A DNA stretch of 33,587 nucleotides from a virus. The translations under genes and the position numbers were made by a program. Positions 856-33,587 of the stretch are shown here, piece after piece (position 1 is the first letter of the stretch; each line of letters begins with the position of its first letter). The stretch lies in IMG/VR virus record IMGVR_UViG_3300035703_003858, positions 1-33,587 of that record; one strand, given 5' to 3'. Under the pieces are notes generated by a model. That model did not search any database. It had not been told where the DNA came from and saw only the letters and a list, made by a program, of their open reading frames with translations.

Positions 856-1863
856 TTACTTCTCCGCCTTCAGGATCCTGCTCCAAACTTCCTTCACGAG
901 ATCATAGTAATCTCGCGCAAGATCACTCTTCGGATCATATTCTGGAGCTGACTGCCGCATCGTGAGCGCCTCTTGACCACGCACAGCGCGACGAATCGCT
1001 GTATGAGTAACTAGACCTGGATGCTGTGTGAGATATGCTCCATAGATTTGCGAGCTAAGCTTGTTTTTCTCAAGAAGAGTGGGGACCAAAATGACGTTAT
1101 CCCACTCGATATGCATGTCCTTCTGGAAGTCCAAAGTCGTCGAAAGATTCGTTGAGAGAGCCTGATAACTTCCAAGATCACACCCTATAGGGGAAATCAC
1201 GACATTAGCCGCAGTAAGAGCATTCTCGATCAAGAGATTCCAGTTAGGGCTGTTATCAAAAATGATCACTTGATAATCGTTCGCGAGCGGAGCGATCACC
1301 TGTTCTTTGAGGACGAACTCACGGCGCTTCGTATCACGGATAAATTTTTCTAGAGGACCTAGACCAGGTGTCTCCGGAATAATATCGAGCGTGGGCAATG
1401 GAGTTTCGCGGATCACCTTCTTCAGCGGCGACTTCCCGAGCAAAACATCCGCCAGGCCCTTGTATGCCGTCACTTCCTCTAGAGACTCGATTGCAATCGG
1501 ATTCAGAGCTAGATCCGTCACCGTTCCCTGGATATCCAGGCCAATGATCAGAGTTTTGATTCCGTGTAAGGCCAAGAGTCGACCCAACGAGTAGCTCAGC
1601 GTGCTTTTGAGTACGCCTCCTTTCGCGGTATATACGCAAATCACCCGCAGAGACTTCGGCGGCTCAAGAAAACCGTACTTGGCTCCGATCGCTGGCACTT
1701 GTGCAAGCGTCCACTGCCGCACCTCTATCCGGCCGCGATGAACGCGACGCGCCTTGGGAATGTGCCCAGCTTTCTCCGCGGCAATGAGCGTATTAGGCGC
1801 AACCGAATTCATCTGAAACAGCTTGTGCAGGTCAGTGCTAGTGAATAGATCCTTTTCGAGCAT
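856..1863 (-). CDS. parA: ParA-family partition ATPase with N-terminal HTH
   Basis: A 335-aa Walker-type ATPase that would segregate the plasmid form of the element over the nucleoid. Residues ~5-65 look like a MerR/winged-helix DNA-binding domain, as in large type Ia ParA proteins that repress their own promoter. Residues 81-88 are the deviant Walker A motif KGGVLKST with the signature lysine K81. The Walker A' region follows at GLDIQG (D110), and a Walker B-like strand at VIIFDNSPNW. Length fits type Ia ParA (about 320-400 aa). The start is ATG 1863 behind a weak Shine-Dalgarno. An inverted repeat at 1879-1920 lies in the promoter, consistent with autoregulation. The partner gene follows directly. 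Confidence 0.9.
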   Translation of the reverse strand: MLEKDLFTSTDLHKLFQMNSVAPNTLIAAEKAGHIPKARRVHRGRIEVRQWTLAQVPAIGAKYGFLEPPKSLRVICVYTAKGGVLKSTLSYSLGRLLALHGIKTLIIGLDIQGTVTDLALNPIAIESLEEVTAYKGLADVLLGKSPLKKVIRETPLPTLDIIPETPGLGPLEKFIRDTKRREFVLKEQVIAPLANDYQVIIFDNSPNWNLLIENALTAANVVISPIGCDLGSYQALSTNLSTTLDFQKDMHIEWDNVILVPTLLEKNKLSSQIYGAYLTQHPGLVTHTAIRRAVRGQEALTMRQSAPEYDPKSDLARDYYDLVKEVWSRILKAEK

Positions 1864-8149: not shown

Positions 8150-9274
8150 CTACTCCATAAAGAAAACGGCAGGCTTTCGCGCCGAGCGAGAAAAAAGCGC
8201 CTGAGTAGCCTCGACTATTTTTAGACCCCAAAGACCCTCCTTTAGGCCTGGAGAGGTAAGCTCTGCCTCGGAGAACTCAAACTCGACAAGCCCGCTGCCG
8301 AGATAAAGATACTTCTCGCTGTAGTCGGCTGTTTCGAGGCGAAAGCGCCGCTGAAAGTCGTTGAGATAGATCTCGAGCGTCAGCTCGCGCGGGAAAGAGG
8401 CGCCCGTGCGCAAAAGCCAGAAGTCTCTGAGCCCGACCTTGAGGCTGCCAGACGTCTTCTTGGTAAATTCGTACACGAGAGGCCCCCCCATATCGGGGAC
8501 GGGAGTCGACACCTCGAGCTCGAGCTCCTGCAGAAGAGCTTGAGCCCCCGTCCCAGCAGGCCAGCCAAGAAGGGCTCCAAGCCGCTCCTTGTAGCGGGCA
8601 AGCTCACCTCGAGCCTCGGCCACTTGGGCCTCAAGCTCCGCTTTGACCCCCTGCAGAAGCCTCTCAGTCTCGGCCTTTTGGGCCTGAAACTCGGCCCGCA
8701 GAGCCGCCAGCGAGGCCTTGGCGACCTCCTTGAAGGTTAAAAACTCCCCTCGGGTGGCGGCCAGCTCTCGCATCAGCTCGAGCGTGTGGCGCTGGCCTTG
8801 CGTGAGAGAGAGCGCCACCGCAGCAAGCTCCCTTGCCAAGGAGAGGTTGAGGCGCTCTCCGACGCCTTCGACTGCAATGAGAGAGTCCGGGATCTCTTCG
8901 AGAATGAGGTCGATGCCAAAAAGCAGATCCTCCGACGCTATCCGCTTGGCGAGGATCTCGCCTGCCCTAGAGAGCACGGCAAAGAGGATCGGTCCGTCCA
9001 CCCCTTCGAGGCTTGCCACAATGCCCATCTCGCCGACGTCGTAGGCTTCTCTCCCAGAGCGAAACTCGGCCGTGAGGTGAACGCGGTTTCCAGAGACCCG
9101 GTTTGAGTCGGCAAGGCTCGAAGCCTCGACTCTTTCCTTGAGCGCTGCTTCGGAGCCATCTGGATCGTAGGAGGCCTTTCCCAGCTCAATGCCGACAAAG
9201 CGAAGCCTCTTGCCCCTGGCCTCGGCCTCGGCCAGGGCCTCGAGCCCGCGTCTTGTAATCCTCGGGCGCTCCAT
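8150..9274 (-). CDS. H: Tail fibre protein H (P2 gpH N-terminal domain)
   Basis: A 374-aa tail fibre or tail-collar-type protein for host recognition. The N-terminal ~150 residues follow the P2 gpH baseplate-attachment domain (ITRRGLEALAEAEARGKRLR, then VGIELGKASYDPDG). Residues ~185-245 are an Ala/Glu-rich coiled coil, and the C-terminal ~110 residues form a beta-rich, non-repetitive tip. The start is ATG 9274, which overlaps the I stop as TGATG. It is much shorter than P2 H (about 669 aa), so the fibre is short. The tip is expected to set host range. Confidence 0.8.
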   Translation of the reverse strand: MERPRITRRGLEALAEAEARGKRLRFVGIELGKASYDPDGSEAALKERVEASSLADSNRVSGNRVHLTAEFRSGREAYDVGEMGIVASLEGVDGPILFAVLSRAGEILAKRIASEDLLFGIDLILEEIPDSLIAVEGVGERLNLSLARELAAVALSLTQGQRHTLELMRELAATRGEFLTFKEVAKASLAALRAEFQAQKAETERLLQGVKAELEAQVAEARGELARYKERLGALLGWPAGTGAQALLQELELEVSTPVPDMGGPLVYEFTKKTSGSLKVGLRDFWLLRTGASFPRELTLEIYLNDFQRRFRLETADYSEKYLYLGSGLVEFEFSEAELTSPGLKEGLWGLKIVEATQALFSRSARKPAVFFME

Positions 9275-9840
9275 CAACGCCCCACGACTGCGGCAAAGCG
9301 CTTGATGCGAGTCAGGCGCGCAAACATCGCCGCCCCGACTGTGGCCTCGGCCTCAAACATGACGTCGAGGTCAAAGCGGGCTCTAAGCGGCTTTAGCGAC
9401 TCGATGACGCGCAGGATGCGGCGTCTTTCGGCCTCGCCAAGGGGGCGGTTGTCCTTGTTGAAAAGGATGACCTTGAAGGTGTAGGGCTCCCTCGGCTCGG
9501 GGTGGTCCCACCACTCGCGGATTCTAGCCCTGACGCCAAGGGTCTCCATGGCCAAGTCGATGGCAGCCAGGGTGCCGCGCAGCCTTTTGATCTTCTCAAA
9601 GCGAGAGATGATCTCACGGCGCCGCCTCGTCAGGTCGTCTTCGCTCTCCACCCCGACAAAGTCCTCGTCCCACAGCTCAACCCCCCTCTCCCAAGCCAGA
9701 TACGGCAGAAAGGCCGGCGGGCAGGTGTCGGGGTCAAAAAGCGAGGCAAAGTCAAAGGAGAGGCCCTCGAGCCTCTCTCCTGCGACCTCCTCGAGCGTCC
9801 TCTCAAGCGGCGTCGAATTTTTCGGCAGAAGGCTTGTCAC
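9274..9840 (-). CDS. I: Tail formation protein I (P2 gpI-like baseplate wedge)
   Basis: A 188-aa baseplate protein of the P2 gpI family, joining wedge protein J to the fibre. Signature pieces are LFDPDTCPPAFLPYLAWERG and, later, KIKRLRGTLAAIDLAMETLG and REWWDHPEPREPYTFKV. GTG 9840 overlaps the J stop as GTGA. P2 gpI is about 176 aa, so the length fits. Order J-I-H is as in P2. Confidence 0.9.
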   Translation of the reverse strand: MTSLLPKNSTPLERTLEEVAGERLEGLSFDFASLFDPDTCPPAFLPYLAWERGVELWDEDFVGVESEDDLTRRRREIISRFEKIKRLRGTLAAIDLAMETLGVRARIREWWDHPEPREPYTFKVILFNKDNRPLGEAERRRILRVIESLKPLRARFDLDVMFEAEATVGAAMFARLTRIKRFAAVVGR

Positions 9841-21020: not shown

Positions 21021-21422
21021 CCGACTCTGCTCCTTCCCCAGCACCCTTTTGCGAATAAATAGCGGCCGATCCCTCCCCCTTTCTTCGTCGTGAGAAGTAG
21101 GAGGTAATGCCCTGTTACTCCGAGGCGGGCGAACGGCACCAAAGATGAGACGCGAAACCCTTGAGCCACAAGGACAGCTTCCGCACAACACAGCTTTCTG
21201 ACGGGAAATGGACCTATCCAGCTAAGATAGCAGAGAAAAGATGGCTGGCTTAGCGATTCCCCCAAATGCCGGCAGGATTCCGACTATGTGCACACAAAGC
21301 GCGCAAACGGGTCCTTTCCCACCCCCCTTTTGCGGTGCCGGCGGCGCCGCGCCCCCTCCCTAGAGAATAAAAAAATTCGCTGAAAAGCCGCTGGGATGAG
21401 CAGGTCGCTAACCAAAACAGGC
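21021..21422. other. Non-coding region upstream of the recombinase
   Basis: About 400 nt with no convincing gene. It should hold the promoter of the long minus-strand late operon. An inverted repeat CTATC-N7-GATAG lies at 21214-21230, and GCTAAG (21221-21226) pairs with CTTAGC (21249-21254). These could be recombination or regulatory sites. A GC-rich hairpin (21332-21350, GCGGTGCC and GGCGCCGC) lacks a T-run. No att core could be proven because no integrated copy is available for comparison. Confidence 0.4.
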
Positions 21423-21462
21423 TTGACGCCTTACCTTGGCGGTATTACTTATATGGTAATAC
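21423..21462 (+). promoter_or_regulatory. Promoter and operator of the AbrB-VapC operon
   Basis: A -35-like TTGACG (21423-21428) and a -10-like TACTTA (21446-21451, 17-nt spacing) lie upstream of the antitoxin. A perfect inverted repeat, GTATTAC (21442-21448) and GTAATAC (21456-21462) with a 7-nt spacer, covers the -10 region. Antitoxins of this type repress their own promoters, so this is the expected operator. The ribosome-binding site GGAGG is at 21467-21471. Confidence 0.65.
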
Positions 21463-21478
21463 AAACGGAGGCGACGTC

Positions 21479-21733
21479 ATGACGTCCCGCATCACGTCCA
21501 AAGGCCAAGTCACCATCCCCAAAGAAGTCCGCGACGAGCTCGGCCTCACCCCAGGCACGAAAATCGGCTTTAAGAAGATCGGCGACAAGTATGTCCTCGT
21601 GAAGGAGGTCGAGTCCGCCGAGGACGACTACCTCGCCGGGTGGGTTGGAAAGGTCGAGCCCCTCGAGCCCGGTCAAACCGTCGACGAGATCATCGACGAC
21701 ATGCGGGGAGGCCGCCCCAGTGATCGCCGTTGA
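21479..21733 (+). CDS. vapB: AbrB/SpoVT-type antitoxin (VapB-like)
   Basis: An 84-aa antitoxin. Residues ~1-45 are a swapped-hairpin AbrB DNA-binding domain with the hallmark SRITSKGQVTIPKEVRDELG and LTPGTKIGF. The C-terminal ~35 residues are acidic and would wrap the toxin. ATG 21479 follows GGAGG. It overlaps the PIN toxin by 14 nt. The inverted repeat over its promoter fits autoregulation. Confidence 0.9.
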   Translation: MTSRITSKGQVTIPKEVRDELGLTPGTKIGFKKIGDKYVLVKEVESAEDDYLAGWVGKVEPLEPGQTVDEIIDDMRGGRPSDRR

Positions 21734-22142
21734 TACCAACGTCCTACTCGACGTCCTCGTGCGCGGTGCCGAGCACGAGGAAGTTTCTCGCAAGGCTCTG
21801 CTGGCCGCGCGCAAAGCCGGATCACTCGTCACCTCAGAGATCGTCTACGCCGAAATCGCCGCCCAGCTTGGCGGCGAGGCCAAGACGATTGACGCCTTCT
21901 ACCGTGACGCTGGCCTCGAGCTGGCCCCCTCCACGCGAGACGTCCTGGCCCACGCCGGAGCCGCGTGGAGGGCTTACCGGCAGCGCGGCGGCAAGCGGAC
22001 ACGCATGGCCGCCGACTTTCTCATTGGCGCCCATGCGCTTGCTAACGGAGGGGCGCTGCTGACGCGCGACGTGGACTTCTATCGGACTAACTTTGCAAAG
22101 CTGCGCGTGATCGATCCATCCGAAGGATGCGACATAATATGA
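21720..22142 (+). CDS. vapC: PIN-domain toxin (VapC family)
   Basis: A 140-aa PIN ribonuclease, start GTG 21720 with GGGGAGG upstream, inside the end of its antitoxin gene. Acidic metal-site residues are visible: D5 in VDTN, E45 in IVYAEIAA, D in MAADFLIGAHA and D in TRDVDFY. VapC toxins cut tRNA or rRNA and stop translation until the antitoxin neutralises them. The stop overlaps the ATG of the next small gene, so the operon continues. Confidence 0.92.
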   Translation: MIAVDTNVLLDVLVRGAEHEEVSRKALLAARKAGSLVTSEIVYAEIAAQLGGEAKTIDAFYRDAGLELAPSTRDVLAHAGAAWRAYRQRGGKRTRMAADFLIGAHALANGGALLTRDVDFYRTNFAKLRVIDPSEGCDII

Positions 22143-22252
22143 GACTTGAGGGACAGACGCGCCAAATCAACGTCGGCAACGAGTACACGGTCTGCCGACA
22201 CAGAGCGCGGTGCCCCATTGCTTGCTGGTGGAAGGAAGAACTGAGCCCGTGA
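22139..22252 (+). CDS. 37-aa cysteine-containing small protein (unknown)
   Basis: A 37-codon frame from ATG 22139, which overlaps the VapC stop, to TGA 22250-22252, which overlaps the next start as GTGA. The tight overlap on both sides supports translation. It has three cysteines, two tryptophans and a basic centre (TVCRHRARCPIACWW). It resembles no family known to me. A truncated remnant is an alternative, but the coupled arrangement argues for a used gene. Confidence 0.5.
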   Translation: MRLEGQTRQINVGNEYTVCRHRARCPIACWWKEELSP

Positions 22253-22539
22253 AGGTGACAAAAGACGCCAAGCTAGACGTCGCATACATCAAGCTCCGCG
22301 CCGGCAAGGTCGCATCCACGGTCGAGCTGCGCCCAGGCATCTTGTTCGACCTTGACAAGAACGGCCAGGTGCTTGGGATCGAGGTGCTAGCATTGAGCCA
22401 ACTCGCGCCGCTGCTCAAATCAAGCGGCTCAAGCGGTCCAGCCGCCCGAGCGCGTAGGCAGCAGCCAGGCAGCAGACGGCAAGAAAACGCGGAAAACCGA
22501 AGGTCATCGACAGCAGCGCAGCGGTCGTCAAATCGTTAG
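22249..22539 (+). CDS. DUF2283-family protein
   Basis: A 96-aa protein starting at GTG 22249, coupled to the 37-aa gene. The first ~60 residues fit the DUF2283 pattern: KVTKDAKLDVAYIKLR, then PGILFDLDKNGQVLGIEVL. The C-terminal ~35 residues are Arg/Gln/Ser-rich and probably disordered. DUF2283 proteins are often next to small toxin-like genes and may act as antitoxins, but their biochemistry is not settled. Here it is the last gene of the AbrB-VapC operon. Confidence 0.75.
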   Translation: MKVTKDAKLDVAYIKLRAGKVASTVELRPGILFDLDKNGQVLGIEVLALSQLAPLLKSSGSSGPAARARRQQPGSRRQENAENRRSSTAAQRSSNR

Positions 22540-22560
22540 TCTTTGTCGCAATCTAACCAG

Positions 22561-22577
22561 CGACGGGCGCCCCGTCG
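22561..22577. terminator. GC-rich stem-loop between convergent genes
   Basis: CGACGGG-CGC-CCCGTCG is a perfect 7-bp stem with a 3-nt loop. A second overlapping stem, CCCGT-CGTC-ACGGG, follows and leads into GGGCTTTCTT. It lies just past the DUF2283 stop and at the end of the minus-strand gene remnant. A terminator for one or both directions is plausible, but there is no long T-run. Confidence 0.4.
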
Positions 22578-22835
22578 TCACGGGCGGGCTTTCTTCACTC
22601 TGTCGATATATGCGGCAAGCTCCGAGTCGTCGGTCGGGATAGAGCCAAACTGCTGCTCCAGGTCGGACGCAAAGGATCTCGACCAAGCGTAGAGATCGTC
22701 GAGCACGACTTTAGAGCGCGTCTCATCTCTTGCCTGCTGAGGGCGCTGCTTTTTCAGGTCGCCAACGGAAACGCCCCAGCCCTCGGCGATAAACTTTAGC
22801 TTCTCCTCGTCAGAGGAGACGGGAGAGACAAGTCT
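22578..22835 (-). pseudogene. Open frame with no start codon, probable gene remnant
   Basis: An open frame of 85 codons ending at TGA 22580-22578. It has natural-looking composition (KLKFIAEGWGVSVGDLKKQ, then VLDDLYAWSRSFASDLEQQF), but there is no ATG, GTG or TTG before codon ~40, and an in-frame TAA lies at 22838-22836. It therefore looks like the 3' end of a gene whose start was lost, or one using a rare start. GVSVGDLKKQ could be from a small helix-turn-helix protein. Function unknown. Confidence 0.4.
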
Positions 22836-22935
22836 TTAGGGTCTGGTTAACTATTTGTTTTTTGAAAAGAAATCAGACGGATCTGTCTGCCATCACGCCA
22901 GAATCACCTCAAGCGGATTCACTCTCGTGCCGACA

Positions 22936-22961
22936 AGTATATAGAGTATGATATATATACT
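22936..22961. promoter_or_regulatory. Inverted repeat upstream of the second VapB (operator)
   Basis: AGTATATA (22936-22943) and TATATACT (22954-22961) form perfect 8-bp arms around a 10-nt spacer, 29 nt upstream of the antitoxin ATG. The AT-rich sequence can also serve as a -10 element. Operators of this form are usual for RHH-type antitoxins. Confidence 0.6.
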
Positions 22962-22990
22962 CGTCTTCCTGGAGTGAAGAGAGAAACCCG

Positions 22991-23218
22991 ATGGCCCAAC
23001 TGAACATCTACGTACCCGACGAACTCGAGGGCAAAGTCCGCAAGGAAGCCTCGCGCCGCGGCCAGAGCATCTCGGCCTTCATCGCCGAGCTCGTGCGCAA
23101 GGAAGTCGGCAGCGACCAGTGGCCGCTGGGCTTCTTCGACTTGGCCGGCAGCTGGGAAGGCGACTTTCCAGAAATCGAAGACCTGCCCCCGCAAGAGCGC
23201 GATTGGGGAGACTCGTGA
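22991..23218 (+). CDS. vapB: RHH-type antitoxin (VapB-like)
   Basis: A 75-aa protein with an N-terminal ribbon-helix-helix pattern (AQLNIYVPDELEGKVRKEAS, then RGQSISAFIAELVRKEV), which would bind the inverted repeat upstream. The acidic, Pro- and Trp-containing C-terminus would occupy the toxin active site. The stop overlaps the toxin GTG start as GTGA. The pair is typical of type II systems. Confidence 0.88.
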   Translation: MAQLNIYVPDELEGKVRKEASRRGQSISAFIAELVRKEVGSDQWPLGFFDLAGSWEGDFPEIEDLPPQERDWGDS

Positions 23219-23610
23219 GGCGTATCCTCGACACCAACACCTGCATCGCCTACCTGCACAAAGGCGAGCAGGAGGTCGTCCAGAAATTCGCACAGGCAAA
23301 GCCGCAGGAGCTGCTGCTGTGCAGTGTCGTCAAGGCGGAACTCCTCTATGGCGCGCGGCGCAGCCAGCGTGTCGCTGACAACCTCGACAAACTCGAACGA
23401 TTTTTTGCCAGCTTCGAAAGCCTCCCCTTCGACGACAAAGCAGCCGAGTTTTACGGCACCAACCGTGCGCTGCTTGCGCGCACTGGAACGCCGATAGGAA
23501 CCAACGATCTGCTCATCGCCTCGATCGCCCTGGCGCACGATGTGGCAGTCATAACCCGCAACACCAAAGAATTCACTCGCGTGCCAGGCCTCAGGGTCCA
23601 GACATGGTGA
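23215..23610 (+). CDS. vapC: PIN-domain toxin (VapC/FitB-like)
   Basis: A 131-aa PIN toxin starting at GTG 23215. Motifs are D6 in ILDTNTC, E42 in KAELLYGA, D in GTNDLLIASIA and a terminal VITRNTKEF. It belongs to the tRNA(fMet)- or FitB-like VapC group by pattern. It is not a recent copy of the first VapC, as protein similarity is limited to the motifs. Its antitoxin is directly upstream. Confidence 0.92.
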   Translation: MRRILDTNTCIAYLHKGEQEVVQKFAQAKPQELLLCSVVKAELLYGARRSQRVADNLDKLERFFASFESLPFDDKAAEFYGTNRALLARTGTPIGTNDLLIASIALAHDVAVITRNTKEFTRVPGLRVQTW

Positions 23611-23673
23611 CGAGAGATGCTGCGAAAGCTTCGCCAAACTGCCCACCAGCACGACTGCGGCTTGGCGGCAAAG

Positions 23674-23695
23674 GGCCAAGACGATTGACGCCTTC
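23674..23695 (+). repeat. 22-nt copy of a vapC internal segment (relic)
   Basis: The 22 nt at 23674-23695 are identical to 21878-21899 inside the first vapC, and the bases before (CTTGGCGGC) also match after a small gap. There is no VapC frame around it. This looks like a scar of a vanished vapC copy or of recombination between toxin genes. It lies in the short gap between the second VapC and the Phd-like antitoxin. Confidence 0.7.
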
Positions 23696-23728
23696 CTGCG
23701 AGCAAAAAACTCCCGAGGTGCCCTCCCC

Positions 23729-24007
23729 ATGGAAACCATCAACGCCCGAAATCTCAAAGCCGAGCTGAAAGACTATCTCGACCTCGCCGCCACGGAGCCC
23801 ATCCGCATCAACCGCCGCTCCGGTGAAGCCCTCATCCTCATGCGAGAAGACCTCTACGCCTCCATGCAAAACGAAATCCTCTCCCTGCAGCGCCGGTTGC
23901 TCGGTATGTCGCAGGCGCTCGAAGGGCAAGGCAGCAACGTCGAGCCCAGCGAGGCCGCAGGCCGCCTTCGCTCCCGGGCTCGGGCAAAGAAGGGCGTCGC
24001 ACCGTGA
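23729..24007 (+). CDS. Phd/YefM-type antitoxin (orphan)
   Basis: A 92-aa protein with the Phd/YefM N-terminal pattern (TINARNLKAELKDYLDLA, then EPIRINRRSGEALILMRED). The C-terminal half is helical, then basic. ATG 23729. No full toxin follows: only a 20-codon stub overlaps its stop. It may still neutralise a related toxin elsewhere, or be decaying. Confidence 0.85.
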   Translation: METINARNLKAELKDYLDLAATEPIRINRRSGEALILMREDLYASMQNEILSLQRRLLGMSQALEGQGSNVEPSEAAGRLRSRARAKKGVAP

Positions 24008-24066
24008 AAACTCAGCTCGTCGAGCTGTCCAGCTACCTGAGCCGCTCGGGTTCAGACCTTTCCTGA
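24004..24066 (+). pseudogene. Toxin gene stub after the Phd-like antitoxin
   Basis: GTG 24004 overlaps the antitoxin stop as GTGA, the same coupling used by the two VapC pairs, but the frame ends after 20 codons (KTQLVELSSYLSRSGSDLS). This is what a toxin gene cut soon after its start would look like. The identity of the lost toxin cannot be told from so few residues. Confidence 0.4.
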
Positions 24067-24474
24067 CCGACGCTGCCGAATGTATTCACTTACCGCCATC
24101 CGAATAAAGGATTGGTAACCAATGCTGAGCTTGGCAGCCTCATCCTTCACCGTCGTCAAAAGGCTCTCGGGCCACTTCATATGGACAGCCTCTAAAGGCT
24201 CCGGACTGCGCGGTCTGCCACTCCGCCGACGGATGGCCTCCTTGGCGCTCTCAACCGCTGACCACAGCTCGTCAGCCTCCTGGCCCTCGACGGCAACCCA
24301 GTCGGACGGTTTCGTCTGCTCAAGCTGGCGCGCTTCTTCCAACTCCTTACCTCCGGGCCCAGGAAGCTCTCTCTCTGTGCTTGGCTTTGCCTCGTTTGCC
24401 ATGGCTTCTCCCTTCGTTTCCATTCCCAAGCTAGAGACAACCGGAACGTTTGCCCTGTAACTCTCACCTTTCAT
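24052..24474 (-). CDS. BrnA/CopG-like antitoxin (putative)
   Basis: A protein of up to 140 aa. The C-terminal ~45 residues match the BrnA/RHH pattern (MKWPESLLTTVKDEAAKL, then GYQSFIRMAVSEYIRQR). The N-terminal part is Glu/Lys/Pro-rich and longer than in usual BrnA (~90 aa). ATG 24474 overlaps the toxin stop, but ATG 24402, with AAGGGAG five bases upstream, has the better ribosome-binding site and would give about 116 aa. It is the second gene of a toxin-first operon, the usual BrnTA order. Confidence 0.75.
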   Translation of the reverse strand: MKGESYRANVPVVSSLGMETKGEAMANEAKPSTERELPGPGGKELEEARQLEQTKPSDWVAVEGQEADELWSAVESAKEAIRRRSGRPRSPEPLEAVHMKWPESLLTTVKDEAAKLSIGYQSFIRMAVSEYIRQRRSGKV

Positions 24475-24784
24475 CGTCGTCAAAATCAGCCTCACCCAAA
24501 TCAAGCCACTTGCTCAGCGGCATAGCCGTCTTCAACCAAAGCGTTCGCTCCGCTCGTCTAATCGTCACCCATGCCACCAGCCAGCGATCTGACATGGTGG
24601 GAGCTGTAAACTGGTAGGTCGCCGGAGGATCATGGCGAGGATCACGCGGGCGCACCCAGTCCTCGCGCGTGCTGTTGCAAAAGGCCTCCTCCACCTCGAC
24701 AAACTCAACGCCGTGTTTTTTTAGTATTTTTTCACGTATCTGCGGCGAGGCGTCGAGGTCGTAGCCGCTGAAATCCTTCACCAT
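24464..24784 (-). CDS. BrnT-like toxin (divergent)
   Basis: A 106-aa protein from ATG 24784 (GGGGAGGGG about 10 nt upstream; ATG 24808 would add 8 residues). The segment ILKKHGVEFVEVEEAF matches the N-terminal hallmark of BrnT, a RelE-fold ribonuclease. The C-terminal half (PTMSDRWLVAWVTIRRAE, LWLKTAMPLSKWL) departs from standard BrnT, which usually ends in an 'ISAR' motif. It may be a distinct subfamily. The RHH antitoxin follows directly. Confidence 0.65.
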   Translation of the reverse strand: MVKDFSGYDLDASPQIREKILKKHGVEFVEVEEAFCNSTREDWVRPRDPRHDPPATYQFTAPTMSDRWLVAWVTIRRAERTLWLKTAMPLSKWLDLGEADFDDDER

Positions 24785-24808
24785 TTTCTTGTTCGCCCCT
24801 CCCCTCAT

Positions 24809-25134
24809 TCACTCGGCACAGCATCCCTATCGGCACAAGAACAGATGTAGATTAATATATGTTTTATGTACATCAAATTACTCACCCTCAAGACCTAGAA
24901 AGTCTCAGAACACCATCCAATTGCCCGGCCGCCACGTGCCATAAGTAGCCAATACGAAAAATATTTTTCATATCACCAACAAGATGGCTCATATTTCGTC
25001 ACGGCCTGCCGATCTCCGACTTGCCAGCCATCAGCAAGGCACCCCCTCCCCTAGAGGCTAAGGGATAGCTCCGCCCTAGAGGCCGAAAACGGCCAGATGA
25101 GGGCAGCCTAATGGGACGTGAGGAAGCCAAAGAG
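24809..25134. other. AT-rich intergenic region between brnT-like and fibre genes
   Basis: About 325 nt between divergent genes, with no supported gene. GATGTA (24844-24849) and TACATC (24869-24874) form an inverted repeat likely to be the operator of the BrnT-like operon. A 14-bp perfect palindrome, GAAAAATATTTTTC, lies at 24956-24969. CCCTAGAGGC occurs twice near 25050-25085, and a tight hairpin GGCCG-AAAA-CGGCC (25081-25094) sits just upstream of the fibre start. Promoters for both sides are expected here but were not pinned down. Confidence 0.5.
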
Positions 25135-28100
25135 ATGAAAACAGCAGCACTCAAATACGCCGCATGGAGCATCAGCCTCCTCACTTTCCTTATCCCCATG
25201 CCTGCCAAAGCCGCAGACCTCGCCTACGCCGGGCGTCTGGTCGACGCTGAGGGAGCCCCGCTTGCCGGCCCTCTCGACATCACCCTGCGGTTTTATGGCT
25301 CCGCTGCCGGCGGTGACCAGCTTGGGCCGACCAAGATCTTTGACGGCGTTGCGCTCGAGGGCGGCGTCTTTCAGCTAACAGTCCCTCTTGAGACCACCGA
25401 CCAAGCGGCCATCTTTGGCGACGGCACCGCGCAAGTCTTTGTCGAGATCGAGGCTGCCGGCAAGCTCTACCCAAGGCAGCGCTTCACGCCGGTGCCGCTT
25501 GCCCTCAGAATCCCCGTCGACAACGACGCGCTCGTCTACGGCCCAGACGCCAAGCTCACAGTCGGCGAGATCGCCATGGGGCAGGTGCAGGGGCTTCAGG
25601 CAGCACTCGCCCAGAAGCTCGACTCGACGCCGGCCTCGGCCTCGGCAAGCGGCTTCCTGTCGTCCTCCGACTGGACGACGTTTAACGCCAAGCAAGCCGC
25701 CATCACCGCCAGCTCGAGCCTGACGGCAGGAAGCATCGCCACCGCTAGCCAAGACGCAGTCGTCATCAAGCCCTATGGCGCCCAGGCCGGCGAGACCGGC
25801 GAGCTGCGCTTCGAGGAGAAAACCGGCGGCAACTACGTCGGCTTCAAGGCGCCCGACGCACTCGCCGCCAACAAGGTGTGGACCTTGCCGGCTGCCGACG
25901 GCGCTGCCGGTGAGGTGCTTGCCACCAACGGCTCAGGCGGGCTCTCCTGGGTGGCGCTGAGCGGCGCCAACATCCTCGACGCCACCATCACCGACAGCAA
26001 GCTCCAGACGATCACGACCGCCGGCAAGGTCTCAGGCTCTGCCATCACGTCGGGGACCATCGGCGGCAGCGCCGCGTTTGCCGGCTCGGGCGGCGTCACC
26101 ACCAGCGGCAACATAACCCTCTCGCCGGCCAGCGCGGCTGCCACCCAGCTGCGTTTTCAAGACGACGACGCCTCCAACTATGTCGCCTTCAAAGCGCCCA
26201 GCACCGTCGCCAGCAATCTGGTCCTCACGCTGCCGGCTGCGGACGGCGCCGCTGGACAGTTTCTAAAGACCGACGGCGCGGGCGTTCTCTCCTGGGACAG
26301 CCCCTCGGGCGCTGGCGACATGCTGAAAAGCGCAAACCTCTCCGACCTCGCCGACAAGCCGGCCGCCAGAACCAACCTCGGTCTTGGCGCGCTCGCCACC
26401 CTCTCGGCCGTCGGCTCCGCCGAAATCACCAACGGCTCTATCGCCGACGGCGACATCTCCGCCTCGGCCGCCATCGCCACCTCCAAGCTCTCAGGTGCTC
26501 TTACGGCCATCGCAGGCCATGGCCTCGGCGCGCTTGCCACTGCAAGCAGCGTCACCTCGGGGGAGATCACCGACTCGACTATCGTCGATGCCGACATCTC
26601 CGCCTCGGCCGCCATCGCCACCTCCAAGCTCTCAGGTGCTGTCACCTCCATCGCGGGTCACGGCCTTGGCGCTCTGGCGACCTTGAGCAGCGTCACGGCA
26701 GCCGAGATCACAGACGGCGAGATCGCCGACGGCGACATCTCTCCCTCGGCCGCCATCGCCACCTCAAAGCTCTCCGGAGCGCTCACTTCCGTCAGCGGCC
26801 ACGGCCTCGGAAGCCTCGCGGCCTTGAGCGCCGTCAGCTCGACAGAGATCACCAACGACACGATCGTCGACGCGGACATTTCGGCTTCGGCTGCCATCGC
26901 CGACAACAAGCTGGCGACCATCGCAACCGCCGGCAAAGTCTCGGGCTCTGCCATCACCTCCGGCACCATCGGCGGCACCGCCGCCTTCAACGGCTCAGGG
27001 GGCGTGTCGACGACCGGCGCTGTCTCTGGCTCCGGCAACTTCGTCGTGAGCGGCACGGGAGCTGCGACCACCGAGCTGCGCTTCCGTGACAACGACAACT
27101 CCAACTACATCGGCTTCAAGGCACCCGACACCATTGCCGCCAACAAGGTGTGGGTCCTGCCGGCAGTCGACGGCACCAGCGGCGACCTTTTGAAGACCGA
27201 CGGCGCCGGCACTTTGTCCTGGGTCTCGGGCGCCGCGCCAACTGGCGCAGCAGGCGGCGATCTTACCGGCAGCTTCCCGAGCCCCACGCTCGCAGCCACC
27301 GGCGTCTCTGCCGGCACCTATCCCAAGGTCACGGTCGACACCAAGGGACGCGTGACGAGCGGCAGCTCGACCATCACGTCGAGCGACATCGCCGACGCCA
27401 CCATCGCCGACGCCGATGTCTCCGGCACGGCCGCCATCGCCACCTCCAAGCTCTCGGGTGCTCTCACTGCCATCAGTGGACACGGCCTCGGCGCGCTCGC
27501 GACCTTGAGCACGGTGAGCACGACCGAGATCACCGACGGCACGATCGCCAATGCCGACATCGCTGCGACTGCGGCCATCGACGCCTCGAAGGTCGCCAAC
27601 GGCAGCGTCAGCTCGACCGAGTTCCAGTACCTGGACGGCGTGACGAGCAGCGTTCAGACGCAGCTCGACGCCAAAGCAAGCGCCGCGAATCCGACCTTCA
27701 CCGGCGCCATCTCATCGGCCTTGGGTAGCGTCTCGGCACCGAGCTACAGCTTCACGGGCGACTCCAATACCGGTGTCTGGTCGTCTGCGGCCGACACCGT
27801 CAACGTCTCGACCGCCGGCAGCGAGCGCCTCAGGATTACGAGCGGTGGAAATATCGGGATCGGAACAACGTCCCCGGTCAATCCGCTTCAGATCTCCGGT
27901 ACAGGAGGCGCCGTTCAGGCGCTCCCCAATGGCGTTCACATGGGTTCAGACATCGGCGGCAATGCTCACTTGGAGCTCGTCACGAGTGTGGGAACACCCT
28001 ACATCGACTTCTTGAACGACAACACAGGTGACTTTGACGCGCGCATCCGTCTCGTCAGCAATGGCAATCTCGCTTTCGAAGGGACAAACGTCGGTATCGG

Positions 28101-29670
28101 CACTACGGCCCCTAGCGCAGCATTGCATGTCAAAGGTAATGGAGGTTCTCTCTACCTCGAGGGAACAGATCACAACTTCATTGGTTTCTATCCTGATGGC
28201 CTGGCAGCAGGCCGCAAGGCCTATTTCGGCTTTGGTGGCGCGAGCGACAATAACGTTACAATTCAAAATGACATATCTGGCGCCCATATCGTGCTTAAGC
28301 CAAACGCAGGCAACGTCGGCATTGGCTCGACCGCGCCAGGCGCCTCCTTGGACGTTAACGGAACGGTGCGCGCGACCAGCTTCGTCAGTACCGGCAGCTC
28401 CGACTGGGGCGGCTACAACATCAACAATGTCGCTGGCGTCGGAATTGGCACCACCTCACCCTCGGGCAGCTTGAGCTTCGGCGGCAGCACCGCGCGCAGC
28501 ATCCTCGTCGAGCGCCATCCGACAGCCGACACGGCTGGCAACAACCTGTCGCTCGCCGCTGGTGGGGCGACCTCCGGCGCGACCAACAAGGACGGCGGCG
28601 ATCTGGTCCTGGCATCAGGCGCCGCTACTGGCTCGGGGACTTCCGACATCATGTTTCAGACCGCGGCTCCTGGGGCGGCTGGTACGGCCGACCGAGCCGC
28701 GACTACCAAGATGGTCATTACAGGCGCCGGCAACGTCGGTATTGGAACGACAACGCCGACTCACTTAATGTCTTTGGGCAACAGTCTGGGCAATTCCAAG
28801 CTGGCAATTTGGGAGGGCGGTACCGGAAGCTCATTCGGCATAGGAGTTCAGGCAGGTCAGTTCCGCTTCAATGTGAATCAGTCGACCGATATCTTCTCGT
28901 TCCTGAATGGCGAGTCGGGGACAGAAGTGATGCGGATTTTTGGAACTGGCAACGTCGGCATCGGCACGACATCGCCCACCTCTAAGGTGGCGGTCAACGG
29001 GGGGATTCAAGTCGGCAATGACTCCGACACCTGCAATAGCACAAAAGCAGGATCAATACGTTGGACTGGAAGCGCTTTCCACGGTTGCGATGGGTCTGCC
29101 TGGGTGTCTCTCAGTGGGATGCCCCCCATCATGATCAGGGTTACCCGGACCAAAGTCTCGGACGCAGCGACGGATGCCACGAAGGACGCGCAATGCTCCA
29201 CCGAGTTCGGCTCGAAGTATATGGCAGCAAACCCGCTGGATCTCGCTGCAAACTCGGGCAGCCTCGATCAAAACGATTCGTTCACTGAGGCTCTGCTCAC
29301 GGTGCGCGGCGACACCGACCCGTGGGCCTATTGGGTAGCACGCGTCATCGGTCGCTGGGATGGCTACTCCGACAACTACTTCGTCGCCTGCATTTACAGG
29401 GATGCGCCGCTCCGGTTTACACTAGGAACGGTTCCTTACAACGCCTCTGCAGCGACGAAGGATGCCTTGTGCGCGAGCGAGATCGGAGCGAGCTATGTAA
29501 CAGCCCAATCGCATGAGATCGCCCACAACTCCGGCGCCGGGTTGGAAAACTACTCCGGGTTCTATTTCAATGCATACGACTCCGCGCGGTCGTTCTACTA
29601 CCCCTCGGCCGATTATATCGAAGTGGTCGGAGCCGGGACTTACAAGCTCGCGTGTATCCGTAGTCCATGA
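25135..29670 (+). CDS. Secreted fibre-like repeat protein, 1511 aa
   Basis: ATG 25135 gives a clean Sec signal peptide (ISLLTFLIPMPAKA, cut after ~26); an upstream ATG 25111 would disrupt it. Residues ~28-140 form a beta domain (DLAYAGRLVDAEGAPLAG, YPRQRFTPVPLALR) common in surface proteins of environmental Gram-negative bacteria. Residues ~220-900 hold three ~50-aa units (GFKAPDTIAANKVWVLPA) and at least five ~46-aa units (EITDGEIADGDISPSAAIA), four in tandem. Residues ~900-1300 hold six tail-fibre motifs of the type GNVGIGTTSP. The last ~180 residues are two copies of a Cys-containing domain. A secreted adhesin or a recruited phage fibre are both possible. Virion fibres do not normally have signal peptides, so a surface protein is more likely. 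Confidence 0.75.
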   Translation: MKTAALKYAAWSISLLTFLIPMPAKAADLAYAGRLVDAEGAPLAGPLDITLRFYGSAAGGDQLGPTKIFDGVALEGGVFQLTVPLETTDQAAIFGDGTAQVFVEIEAAGKLYPRQRFTPVPLALRIPVDNDALVYGPDAKLTVGEIAMGQVQGLQAALAQKLDSTPASASASGFLSSSDWTTFNAKQAAITASSSLTAGSIATASQDAVVIKPYGAQAGETGELRFEEKTGGNYVGFKAPDALAANKVWTLPAADGAAGEVLATNGSGGLSWVALSGANILDATITDSKLQTITTAGKVSGSAITSGTIGGSAAFAGSGGVTTSGNITLSPASAAATQLRFQDDDASNYVAFKAPSTVASNLVLTLPAADGAAGQFLKTDGAGVLSWDSPSGAGDMLKSANLSDLADKPAARTNLGLGALATLSAVGSAEITNGSIADGDISASAAIATSKLSGALTAIAGHGLGALATASSVTSGEITDSTIVDADISASAAIATSKLSGAVTSIAGHGLGALATLSSVTAAEITDGEIADGDISPSAAIATSKLSGALTSVSGHGLGSLAALSAVSSTEITNDTIVDADISASAAIADNKLATIATAGKVSGSAITSGTIGGTAAFNGSGGVSTTGAVSGSGNFVVSGTGAATTELRFRDNDNSNYIGFKAPDTIAANKVWVLPAVDGTSGDLLKTDGAGTLSWVSGAAPTGAAGGDLTGSFPSPTLAATGVSAGTYPKVTVDTKGRVTSGSSTITSSDIADATIADADVSGTAAIATSKLSGALTAISGHGLGALATLSTVSTTEITDGTIANADIAATAAIDASKVANGSVSSTEFQYLDGVTSSVQTQLDAKASAANPTFTGAISSALGSVSAPSYSFTGDSNTGVWSSAADTVNVSTAGSERLRITSGGNIGIGTTSPVNPLQISGTGGAVQALPNGVHMGSDIGGNAHLELVTSVGTPYIDFLNDNTGDFDARIRLVSNGNLAFEGTNVGIGTTAPSAALHVKGNGGSLYLEGTDHNFIGFYPDGLAAGRKAYFGFGGASDNNVTIQNDISGAHIVLKPNAGNVGIGSTAPGASLDVNGTVRATSFVSTGSSDWGGYNINNVAGVGIGTTSPSGSLSFGGSTARSILVERHPTADTAGNNLSLAAGGATSGATNKDGGDLVLASGAATGSGTSDIMFQTAAPGAAGTADRAATTKMVITGAGNVGIGTTTPTHLMSLGNSLGNSKLAIWEGGTGSSFGIGVQAGQFRFNVNQSTDIFSFLNGESGTEVMRIFGTGNVGIGTTSPTSKVAVNGGIQVGNDSDTCNSTKAGSIRWTGSAFHGCDGSAWVSLSGMPPIMIRVTRTKVSDAATDATKDAQCSTEFGSKYMAANPLDLAANSGSLDQNDSFTEALLTVRGDTDPWAYWVARVIGRWDGYSDNYFVACIYRDAPLRFTLGTVPYNASAATKDALCASEIGASYVTAQSHEIAHNSGAGLENYSGFYFNAYDSARSFYYPSADYIEVVGAGTYKLACIRSP

Positions 29671-29925
29671 AGAAGAGTTCGAATCGGTGGACGAGCGTCC
29701 GAGCTCAACTCAAAGCCGCACGGGCTGCCCATACGACCCGCGACGATCGAGCTTTTCGCCACCATCGGAACTACGTCGCCGGGCTACTTGCTCCACGTCA
29801 ACGGGGCCGTCGCGGGCGTCGGTGCCTACAACCAACTGTCCGACGAACGTTACAAGAAAGATATCGATGACATCTCGGATAGCCTAACCGCGACGCCGGG
29901 CGTCGGCGTCGCCCCTGTGGCCTAG
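29671..29925 (+). pseudogene. In-frame relic of an S74-type fibre tip
   Basis: After the TGA of the large fibre protein, the same frame stays open for 84 codons to TAG 29925. From about 29764 it encodes a typical fibre end, IGTTSPGYLLHVNGAVAGVG, then AYNQLSDERYKKDIDDI, the usual entry into an S74 peptidase/chaperone domain, then breaks off. The rest of the chaperone is missing. This suggests that an older tip was replaced by the present C-terminal domains. Bases 29671-29760 have no recognisable content. Confidence 0.7.
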
Positions 29926-30001
29926 CTGGAGGTCCGAGAACGGCGCAGAAGCAGCCCCGCAAGGGACAGTCACGAAAAACCCGCCCATGCGCACGTGCCT
30001 G

Positions 30002-30328
30002 TCAGCTCCCAAAGAACTTCGGCGGTAGATACGGAAAAACACCATGAATCATGACGTCAGCCGAACTGTACGAATAAAGAATTACGTCGCCCTGAGCTGT
30101 GCCGGTCGATGCGATCGTCTTCACGCGGTACGCTTTGTCCGCAGTCAGCGGCGCTGCCTCGGGATAACGCGCAAGTTCCTCGATTGCCGCGAGGACGTGC
30201 TCACGATAGCGGCGCCTGGTCTCTAACGGAAACGGCTGAAAGGCAGCCATCGCACGAGCACGGCCACGAAATCGCCGTCGCGCACCTTCGGAGGCCCACC
30301 GCCATGGCAAGGCGGCGCGCTCAGTCAC
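30002..30328 (-). CDS. RelE/ParE-like toxin (putative)
   Basis: A 108-aa protein from GTG 30328, which overlaps the antitoxin stop by 8 nt. The second half fits the RelE/ParE fold: a helix EHVLAAIEELARYPEAAP, the strand AYRVKTIAS, and GDVILYSYSSADVMIHGVF. The N-terminus is Arg- and Trp-rich. Likely a type II toxin with the antitoxin upstream. The family fit is moderate and no catalytic set was confirmed. Confidence 0.6.
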   Translation of the reverse strand: MTERAALPWRWASEGARRRFRGRARAMAAFQPFPLETRRRYREHVLAAIEELARYPEAAPLTADKAYRVKTIASTGTAQGDVILYSYSSADVMIHGVFPYLPPKFFGS

Positions 30329-30671
30329 GGTCTTCGGCCTCCAGCGCGTCGAGCTCGACATCTTCCTGTTCGGCCGCGGCGAGCTCCTCAGCTGCTGTCG
30401 TAGTCGGCAGGGGCTCCTGGTGCTCGAAGAGCTGCCAGAAGGTCAGCAGCTCCAAGTAGCGTTCTTCGGTCACAACGACCTTGATGGGATGGCCGCGGTG
30501 GACGATGCGCAGGGCCTTGTCGTCTGTCACGTCGCCGAGAAGGGCGTTACCTTCGGGGCTTCGTATCTTGCTCACCGTAACGGTGCCGGCAAAAAGTGGC
30601 TGTTGGCTACGCGCTTTGGCGGCCGGAACCGTAAGCTCTTTGGCGGGAGCCGGTTGGGGTTCTGGTCTCAT
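30321..30671 (-). CDS. Antitoxin-like protein (Phd-related, putative)
   Basis: A 116-aa protein, ATG 30671. The centre has the pattern LGDVTDDKALRIVHRGHP, then IKVVVTEERYLELLTF, which resembles the 'repeat of a strand then helix' of Phd/YefM domains. The C-terminus is acidic (AEELAAAEQEDVELDALEAE), as usual for toxin-neutralising tails. The N-terminal ~35 residues are Pro/Ala-rich. First gene of a pair with the RelE-like gene. Confidence 0.55.
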   Translation of the reverse strand: MRPEPQPAPAKELTVPAAKARSQQPLFAGTVTVSKIRSPEGNALLGDVTDDKALRIVHRGHPIKVVVTEERYLELLTFWQLFEHQEPLPTTTAAEELAAAEQEDVELDALEAEDRD

Positions 30672-30987: not shown

Positions 30988-31899
30988 TCAGCCTAGGTAT
31001 TTTTCCTCGAGCCAAGACACTGCTGCGGTGAGATCCGCGCTTTGAGCCCACTGCATGAGTTCTCCCAGCGCGGCTGTTTCATCTGTTCCGACGTGGCGCG
31101 GAAGCACCTCATCAAAGCGAAAATAGGCATTTCGCCCGAGAATCTGTCGGCACTGGTAGTCGGCGATCCCGACGTTGGCGTCGATCATCAGGCTTGCCAT
31201 CGGCTGAGCCCACTGGGCAAAGCCCCAGTCGAGAGTCTTGCCGGAGATCCACTGTGGACTGCTTCCGCTCGAAAGCGAGAAGACGCGCAGCGAGCGGAGA
31301 TCCTGGCGGCCGATGTCCGGGTTGATGGCCAGAGCCACGGCCGCCATCGCCGGGTTGTTGCACCCTACTCCACCGTCGACGTAGCCCTGGTAGCTTGGAA
31401 AGTAGGTCGGCGCCGCGCTCGAGCGCAAGGCTACGTCGACCATCCGTTCCGTCCCGTCTGAATCGGCCCCGGGGTAGTTGTGGAAGAACTTCATTTTCCA
31501 CGTCCGCGGGGAACCCTCGTTGTCGAGGTCGAAGCTCGCAACGAGCACACGCCGCCTCAGGTCCGAAAGCTGCTGCTCGCCGAAGGTCCGCTCGAGAAGG
31601 CGCTTGAGGTAGCCCTGGTCATAGTCAGCGCCTATAACTTTGCCCATGTCCTGGAGGTTGTCGCACCAAGAGTCGTCAAAAACCTTGGCCCCATGCTTTT
31701 CGAAGAAGGAGACAAGCTCGGCTGCCGCCCTCCCCGAGGCCAGAGACAGGGCGTTAACAGAGCCAATCGAGGTGCCCGCAAAAAGGCGCACCGATGGCAG
31801 AAACGCAGGCACGGCTTCGGCAAGTCGAGCAAGGAGCACAGCCTGGTAAGCTCCTCGCACCCCGCCGCCATCGAGCGACAAGATCCGATAGGGCTTCAT
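30988..31899 (-). CDS. Patatin-like phospholipase
   Basis: A 303-aa patatin-fold lipid acyl hydrolase starting at ATG 31899 (ATG 31917 would add six residues). The oxyanion motif GGGVRG (residues 11-16), nucleophile GTSIGS (Ser44) and dyad Asp in YVDGGVGCNN are all intact, so it should be active. No signal peptide, so it acts in the cytoplasm or on the inner membrane unless released. It lies downstream of a GH108 muramidase on the same strand. Patatin enzymes are also CBASS effectors (CapV), but no cyclic nucleotide synthase is present here. Confidence 0.9.
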   Translation of the reverse strand: MKPYRILSLDGGGVRGAYQAVLLARLAEAVPAFLPSVRLFAGTSIGSVNALSLASGRAAAELVSFFEKHGAKVFDDSWCDNLQDMGKVIGADYDQGYLKRLLERTFGEQQLSDLRRRVLVASFDLDNEGSPRTWKMKFFHNYPGADSDGTERMVDVALRSSAAPTYFPSYQGYVDGGVGCNNPAMAAVALAINPDIGRQDLRSLRVFSLSSGSSPQWISGKTLDWGFAQWAQPMASLMIDANVGIADYQCRQILGRNAYFRFDEVLPRHVGTDETAALGELMQWAQSADLTAAVSWLEEKYLG

Positions 31900-31961
31900 G
31901 CGAGGCTCAAGCCGCATCGATATGACACCGGGTTATGGTGTGTATCGCAAGGTCGAGCCCT

Positions 31962-32546: not shown

Positions 32547-33540
32547 TCAGGGAAGCAGTTCGACAAAATCGAGAGCACTGTCATGCGACTGGACATCAAC
32601 GACATGTTTCGAAACATCTGGACGGCCATCCCAGCCGGCATCGGCATTGGCGCCGGGATGAAGATCTTCAACTGGGTCTACGCTCTCCTCGACAAGATCA
32701 TCTAGCGTGCACGCCCTCGAAAGCCCCTTCTCGGACCGCCACGCCGAGAGCTTCTCGGCGTAGGTCTTCCGCTCTCCAAGCACCAGCCCGGCCTGCAAGA
32801 CGTCACCGCAAGACTCGATCGCGTCGCGATAGGCTGGCTGCCGGCTGCTGTGCGGCGTATAGACCTTGAGCCGTACGCCCTGGTACTCAGGCCTCCCGGA
32901 CAAAAACTCCAGCGCCGCTTGCGCCCGGTAGTGCCGTTTGGTGAAGCACACCACCAGCCGGCTCCCGTCGAAGATCCCTACCCGCTGCCGCCAGCGAATC
33001 GCGGCAAGGGAAACCTCCCTGCAGAGACTAGAAAGCGGCACTTGAGCCGCGCGGCTCGACTCCCGGTCAGGCCCGGCAGCCTCGCCGTCATCTTCGCCAA
33101 CGCCGTCGGCGAGAAGGCTTTGAAGAGAAGCAGCAACAAGGGTGAGCTTAGGCGGAGTCGCCTCTGGCTCCCTTCCCTCTGGAACCAAAAACCCCAGCCC
33201 CAGGGGGTATAACCCCCTTCTGGGATTTACTCCGCCTTGTTTTGGTGAGTTGTCAAAAGGCGTATCGTCGGCCAACCACGCGGGAAGGGCGCGGTCCGAA
33301 AAGCGCCCCTCCATGTGGGGGAGGTTGCGATAAATCGCCTTCACGATCGAGCGAACCTGGCGGCAGTTGCGCGAATACTCGCAGCCAGGAACCTCGGCCA
33401 TGCGCAGCTGAATCTTCGCCTGAGCCTCTTCCCGAGAGTAGCCATGCCACTTGTAGGCAAGGGCAAGCGACGTCAGCCAGGCGTTACGCTCCCCGTCCTC
33501 AACCAGCTCGGGTCTCTTGATCGAACTGACCGAACTGAGA
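32547..33540 (-). CDS. Primase/replication protein, C-terminal part (5' truncated)
   Basis: The frame is open from the stop at 32547 to the right window edge, so the start and N-terminal domain are missing. An internal ATG exists at 33401, but the conserved part begins before it. The segment around 33510-33330 reads EDGERNAWLTSLALAYKWHG, then YSREEAQAKIQLRMAEVPG, then VRSIVKAIYR, a good match to the PriCT-type helical domain of archaeo-eukaryotic primases of plasmids and phages. The remaining ~260 residues are less conserved, with a Toprim-like mixed region (VCFTKRHYRAQAALEFLSG). It would start replication of the element. The last ~45 residues overlap the opposite small membrane gene. Confidence 0.7.
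32583..32705 (+). CDS. 40-aa membrane protein (holin-like candidate)
   Basis: A 40-codon frame from ATG 32583 with GAGAG seven bases upstream. After a polar start (RLDINDMFRNIW) it has one hydrophobic segment (TAIPAGIGIGAGMKIFNWVYALL). It lies about 140 nt from the endolysin start, divergently transcribed. A small holin or antiholin fits this size and place. It overlaps the opposite-strand end of the primase gene, so one of the two frames may be wrong there. Confidence 0.4.
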   Translation: MRLDINDMFRNIWTAIPAGIGIGAGMKIFNWVYALLDKII

Positions 33541-33587
33541 ACCCGGCCGCGGGGGGGGGGGGCGGGGGCCCGGCGCCCCCCCCCCCC
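33541..33587. other. G/C homopolymer tail at the window end
   Basis: From about 33551 the sequence is almost only G then C in runs of up to 13, in the form of an imperfect inverted repeat (G-run, GGCCCGG, C-run). No coding sense. Most likely a sequencing or assembly end artefact. A hairpin telomere is a remote alternative. Confidence 0.6.

Follow-up and report, generated by a model that had tools for sequence, protein, structure and literature searches.

Why should a fibre gene that ends in two Cys domains be followed, behind its stop and in the same frame, by the beginning of an S74 chaperone? The gene lies in a virus record that was analysed as a whole (the window, 33,587 nucleotides), with terminase, portal, capsid, sheath and baseplate genes, the structural genes being P2-like. 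An earlier note, made from the letters alone, had proposed tip switching, in which a new receptor-binding end was inserted before the old one.

The fibre gene and the S74 piece behind its stop

The fibre ORF spans 25111-29670 (+), 1519 codons, and closes at a TGA. Its parts, and those of the DNA behind it, are as follows.

25135-29670 (+): fibre gene; likely start ATG 25135, further in-frame ATG 25111; 1511-1519 aa
25135-25212 (+): putative signal peptide MKTAALKYAAWSISLLTFLIPMPAKA, with basic n-region, hydrophobic core and AKA-A site
25213-25563 (+): N-domain as in exported bacterial fibres, pattern GRL..G.PL....F...GG...GVF....PRQRF..VPLA
25612-27591 (+): stem part A, repetitive; internal repeats 69-78% identical; GC3 0.85
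27592-28956 (+): stem part B, with five of the six VGIGTTSP-type motifs; GC lower
28957-29127 (+): stem-tip joint, with the sixth VGIGTTSP motif and a CNSTKAGSIRW...CDGSAW motif
29128-29403 (+): tip repeat 1, a Cys domain homologous to repeat 2; relatives in Bdellovibrionota and a Planctomycetota MAG
29404-29667 (+): tip repeat 2, a Cys domain; natural C-terminus
29668-29670 (+): TGA stop; three homologues terminate at the equivalent place
29671-29760 (+): 90-nt linker, open in frame, without homology
29761-29892 (+): S74 relic, with the last capping motif and the S74 start including SDERYK (SDxxxK)
29893-29965 (no strand): stretch from the relic to the right module edge, in which the frame closes
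29966-29998 (no strand): right edge of the exchangeable slot, common to L170 from 29966 and to L172 and L180 from 29998

The frame resumed 90 nt past the fibre stop encodes TIGTTSPGYLLHVNGAVAGVGAYNQLSDERYKKDIDDISDSL, the end of a VGIGTTSP stem joined to the start of an S74 chaperone; 29761-29922, read in the frame of the fibre ORF, encodes TIGTTSPGYLLHVNGAVAGVGAYNQLSDERYKKDIDDISDSLTATPGVGVAPVA and is closed by TAG at 29923. Besides the six VGIGTTSP-type motifs within the ORF there is a seventh in the relic, its leading VG lost. When the relic was aligned with the intact S74 fibre of L002, 71% identity was found over 41 aa (59.3 bits), while the best of 1000 shuffled controls reached 26.2 bits. 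By these scores the S74 relic is real homology and not a product of chance. Nine intact S74 ends gave a 126-position S74 model, of which the relic corresponds to positions 1-42 (E 2e-15); positions 43-126 had no match anywhere in the window. The SDxxxK catalytic motif of Peptidase_S74 is intact within 29761-29892. What the fibre frame holds is thus not a complete S74 chaperone domain but its first third, beyond the stop. The Pfam S74 model gave the relic 12.9 bits, under the cut-off of 22, because most of the domain is gone. ORF, alignment and model agree with the earlier note in that the frame ends and resumes after 90 nt with a seventh VGIGTTSP-type motif and an S74 start.

By chance the frames would agree with a probability of about 0.16, the product of 1/3 for the frame and about 0.47 for 30 codons without a stop; the shared frame of relic and fibre is weak evidence that they were one gene. 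Among the homologues, none with an intact S74 at the relic's position was found. Read-through of the TGA into the stub was judged unimportant, the gain being a truncated S74 alone, and the stub makes a poor independent small gene, a good start codon being absent and its domain incomplete.

The tandem Cys tip

The last 180 residues of the fibre had been described as two unrelated Cys domains. This description does not hold: repeats 1 and 2 are 34% identical (E 6e-10), one domain in two copies. The pair is a tandem duplication, unrelated to S74. Whole-genome searches yielded three homologues of it. Two are Bdellovibrionota lipoproteins, in which the tandem Cys tip follows an HHHDGSY stem (L216) or a collagen-like stalk (L218). 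The third (L221) is a long protein from a MAG titled Planctomycetota (Ess09-14), with the N-domain, a VGIGTT stem and the tandem Cys tip; its N-domain is broken by a masked stretch, across which continuity is presumed. With the beta-helix stem of the phage, the tip was seen on four stems. Since the homologous tip modules terminate at an equivalent place, the stop at 29668 is natural, and the sequencing error considered by the earlier note becomes very improbable. The occurrence of the pair on other stems with the same end point therefore marks it as a stand-alone terminal tip module, and its reuse suggests that it folds independently.

Behind the tip, S74 was found in 0/3 of these homologues. 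It follows that the S74 piece was not inherited with the tip module. The earlier note had itself set homologues with the same Cys tip and no S74 behind it against its proposal; all three are of this kind, and a lineage-specific switch is still compatible with them.

The tandem tip is rare, with 2/369 Bdellovibrionota genomes and 1/246 genomes of the Planctomycetota phylum. It was seen in 0/398 genomes of the Pseudomonadota phylum, an empty sample that does not prove absence. Direct searches of the viral and genome collections with the Cys tip returned no matches, tblastn against plasmids and phages returned matches confined to the region of a generic C..W motif, and a comparison with solved structure chains gave no match. 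A single-sequence model of the tip (pLDDT 41) was set aside.

An accessory slot and its fibres

The surroundings of the gene are those of cargo, and two further features are needed here.

8150-9277 (-): tail fibre gene of the phage itself, within the tail operon beside baseplate genes and sheath; phrog_3737, E 6e-28
21384-29965 (no strand): accessory slot, with two PIN toxins, a DUF2283 protein, CopG/RHH, Phd/YefM, CopG and BrnT-like genes, and the fibre

Because the tail operon already has its own tail fibre gene, the slot fibre is an extra one. It lies on the opposite strand to the tail operon, amid TA genes, and departs from a virion tail fibre in both respects considered, namely a place in the tail operon and the lack of a signal peptide. 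The slot is flanked by the integrase on one side and by a small TA-like gene and a patatin gene on the other; a small gene at 30002-30361 (-) adjoins its right edge with its 3' end. Ten contigs have terminases 81-98% identical to that of the window, and slot and backbone were compared in nine of them. The backbone left of the slot is common to these relatives, as is the right side in those reaching far enough; it is 80-98% identical on both sides, while the contents within the slot differ. In a more distant sister (L182, 10246-15257) the slot is occupied not by a fibre but by an McrBC-like gene pair together with a DNA methylase. This comparison shows an accessory hotspot, in which cassettes are exchanged.

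Several other genes of the neighbourhood were recorded. The Phd/YefM-type antitoxin gene at 23729-24004 (+) has no obvious adjoining toxin; L172, a sister, has a homologue of it with a small RelE/ParE-like gene next in line. The patatin-like phospholipase by the slot (30988-31917, -) is about 31% identical to plasmid CBASS phospholipase effectors, and L182 has a partial second copy of the gene. ParA and a PriCT primase-like gene were noted (window 856-1863 (-) and 32547-33587 (-); L183 196-6267), and in G010 the match to the right end of the window continues through 2.6 kb absent from the window to the match to its left end. This arrangement looks like that of a circular phage-plasmid, here with an integrase as well. 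In a host search by terminase, identity did not exceed 46% in the bacterial genomes sampled (Elusimicrobiota, Bdellovibrionota, Pseudomonadota, the phylum of a Desulfobulbaceae MAG and the class of the Planctomycetota MAG).

The putative signal peptide was judged by inspection (KD-10 maximum 2.2). The N-domain that follows it is 42-43% identical to that of the DGR fibres of sister phages and had matches in 9/16 bacterial genomes tested, while within IMG/VR an alignment scan found it in six contigs only, all near kin of the window phage. Its HMM, when iterated, reached a Bdellovibrionales MAT-type fibre (E 4e-4 when first included). A single-sequence model of the N-domain was beta-rich (core pLDDT about 85), and Foldseek gave middling beta-sandwich matches (best E 0.05, Z 6.2), on which no fold is claimed. 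Stem part A is 70-73% identical in DNA to the stems of the sister-phage fibres. Stem part B matches the Bdellovibrio MAT Bd2133 (PDB 8ond, E 2e-7; also 8oml and 8ol4), and the PHROG matches of the stem are tail fibres. The same N-domain bears several different ends, including a DGR-diversified C-lectin at the same locus in the sisters. The earlier note is borne out in that this is a fibre with a conserved putative signal peptide and N-domain and an exchangeable end, and the comparison of homologues that it called for did reveal variable ends, both in the tandem tip on its four stems and in the N-domain with its several ends.

Secreted fibres with differing ends also occur in bacteria. In an Omnitrophota MAG (L131, 8899-11905) two tandem secreted fibre paralogues have differing Cys-rich tips straight after the VGIGTT stem. 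The MAG titled Planctomycetota (G025; L138, L221-L227) encodes at least eight N-domain fibres with several C-terminal ends, a MAT-like repertoire outside Bdellovibrionota.

In six sister contigs the encoded fibre is 1080-1085 aa long; it has a signal peptide and the N-domain, its stem is related to that of the window fibre, and its tip is of C-lectin/FGE type (PF03781, E 1e-6). On the 3' side, where the contig extends, lie an HTH gene, bAvd (E 8e-9, under the Pfam cut-off), TR and RT (PF00078, E 3e-17). The VR/TR mismatches fall at TR adenines in 14/15 and 13/14 cases, the exception being at the repeat end. RT, Avd, TR, VR and adenine-specific differences are all present in these phages. Over 3243 nt the fibre genes of L170 and L178 show 12 differences, every one within the VR and at a TR adenine, and the 3 kb upstream contain a single difference; the DGR of the sisters has therefore been recently active. 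A MAT-like fibre predicted to be exported is the DGR target in L170, L171, L172, L178 and L180 (slot region of L172, 4018-9566). The window itself contains no RT, TR, VR or DGR remnant. The sister fibres appear to pair a phage location with a cellular type of DGR target: DGR targets are mostly tail proteins in viruses and mostly membrane-anchored in cells (PMC8144416), and phage DGR proteins were described as being without signal peptides (PMC6199706), a generalisation that a phage DGR target with a putative signal peptide contradicts. This DGR-driven, probably exported fibre in the sister-phage slot is the most interesting fact at the locus and, with the place of the window gene as phage cargo, a larger point than the letters alone could reveal.

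Origin of the stub and relation to known systems

The reading that we prefer, with a probability of about 0.6, is that the gene is an exported MAT-like cargo fibre in a swapped cassette, with a self-folding Cys tip, and that the S74 stub is a leftover of recombination. It builds on what was observed of the stub, the tandem tip and its reuse on other stems, the module edges, and the sister DGR with its activity. The gene would be cargo of a temperate P2-like phage and would encode an exported, probably trimeric, mosaic (MAT-like) fibre. The lysogen would make the fibre and show it on the host surface as an adhesin, not as part of the virion; export, trimerisation, display and adhesion are here predicted from sequence features. 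The slot between the integrase and the TA-like and patatin genes would serve as an exchange site for whole fibre cassettes. In the sister phages, a DGR cassette in this slot would repeatedly re-randomise the tip, a C-lectin, of an exported fibre akin to that of the window, and in the window the fibre would be capped by the tandem Cys tip, which would fold by itself and need no S74 chaperone. The stub would be a dead leftover from a recombination in which a fibre ending in S74 gave way to a new tip or cassette, the right cassette edge truncating the S74 domain. Since the slot gene of the sisters is a DGR fibre and not an S74 one, the stub would have entered with the new cassette or been left by a previous occupant. 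Tip or cassette exchange in the slot is supported by the exchangeable ends, and the stub may once have belonged to the same fibre gene. Of the tip switching first proposed, the exchange of ends stands; the order, a new end inserted before the old S74 end, is not supported and is one of two readings. The wider statement that the slot arms lysogens with swappable exported fibres, one of them DGR-diversified, and that the window records a switch from S74 to a new tip, is tentative and has somewhat less than an even chance.

Some 75-105 nt separate the end of the relic from the right-hand limit of the exchanged module (29966/29998), and being so near it the relic may equally be what remains of an adjacent S74 fibre gene that was cut in the same exchange. 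In that case the Cys-tip gene was never S74-ended, and the 5' part and the 3' end of the second gene were lost to a deletion and the module edge. Tandem paralogous fibre genes with different ends are known from the Omnitrophota MAG, and the missing S74 behind the tip in three homologues, the frame agreement to be expected by chance at about one in six, and the linker without homology would all suit such a history. However, it requires a deletion that stops almost exactly at the last capping motif, and no adjoining fibre gene is left in the window; we consider it possible, at roughly one chance in three. An artefact of sequencing or assembly, that is, a false stop or a false relic junction, might be suspected in a metagenomic contig, but is very improbable, because homologous tips terminate at the same place and two independent relatives have their module edges at the same spot, no more than 32 nt apart, past which the backbone is 97% identical.

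A separate question is whether the protein only looks exported and serves the virion as a tail fibre, so that tip exchange would alter the host range of the phage. Its stem does match tail fibres in PHROG, phage fibres classically end in S74 or in DGR-diversified C-lectins (viral DGR targets being mostly tail proteins, PMC8144416), and an N-domain of bacterial type might occur in some virion proteins, a point against the surface-adhesin reading. Against this stand the putative signal peptides of the window and sister fibres, an N-domain typical of exported bacterial proteins and not found in other IMG/VR contigs scanned, a place outside a tail operon that has its own fibre, and a slot that elsewhere holds TA or defence genes or no fibre. 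We regard a virion role as unlikely, and the preferred reading of an exported cargo fibre is kept.

If the preferred reading is true, an old end lying behind a new one would be a rare frozen intermediate of MAT tip swapping, which has so far been proposed. In one slot of near-identical phages a binding end is seen to be changed in two ways, by cassette exchange and by DGR mutagenesis. The idea is raised, if this is true, that a phage diversifies the surface of its host and not its own tail, a lysogenic conversion by a self-mutating adhesin. Phages might also carry such fibres from one bacterium to another.

The nearest known relatives are the MAT fibres of Bdellovibrio bacteriovorus, 13 S74 and 8 non-S74 members with a signal peptide followed by a conserved N-domain of about 130 aa, among which tip swapping was proposed (PMC10769870). 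The window fibre resembles them in its signal peptide, its beta-rich N-domain of similar size and its repetitive stem homologous to solved MAT stems, and the window and sister fibres have variable C-terminal tips as the MATs do. By these sequence features (signal peptide with N-domain, stem homology, diverse tips) both match the MAT superfamily. In contrast to the MATs, the window fibre is encoded on a temperate phage and not on the chromosome of a predatory bacterium, has a new tandem-Cys tip with an S74 stub left downstream, and is only remotely similar to them in its N-domain; because it comes from a phage record it is filed as MAT-like and not as MAT. The independence of the tandem tip from S74 fits the remark that non-S74 MAT tips fold by themselves (PMC10769870). 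In the same work the MAT Bd2740 has a trimeric C-lectin tip, and Mtd, which the DGR of phage BPP-1 diversifies, is the sole match to its trimer arrangement. The sister phages resemble the DGRs of BPP-1 Mtd and Hankyphage in having RT, bAvd, TR and a C-lectin gene whose 3' end carries the VR, with adenine-specific changes, but their target gene is not part of the tail operon, and its product bears a signal peptide and the N-domain of exported bacterial proteins; the window phage, unlike DGR phages, has no DGR. Like Peptidase_S74 fibres (PF13884), the relic keeps the last capping motif and SDxxxK, but it is without two thirds of the domain, lies beyond a stop and is not functional. As with displaced Rhs tips, which serve here as an analogy only, an old C-terminal end may be seen downstream of a newer one, although the window fibre has no Rhs core and no toxin/immunity pair.
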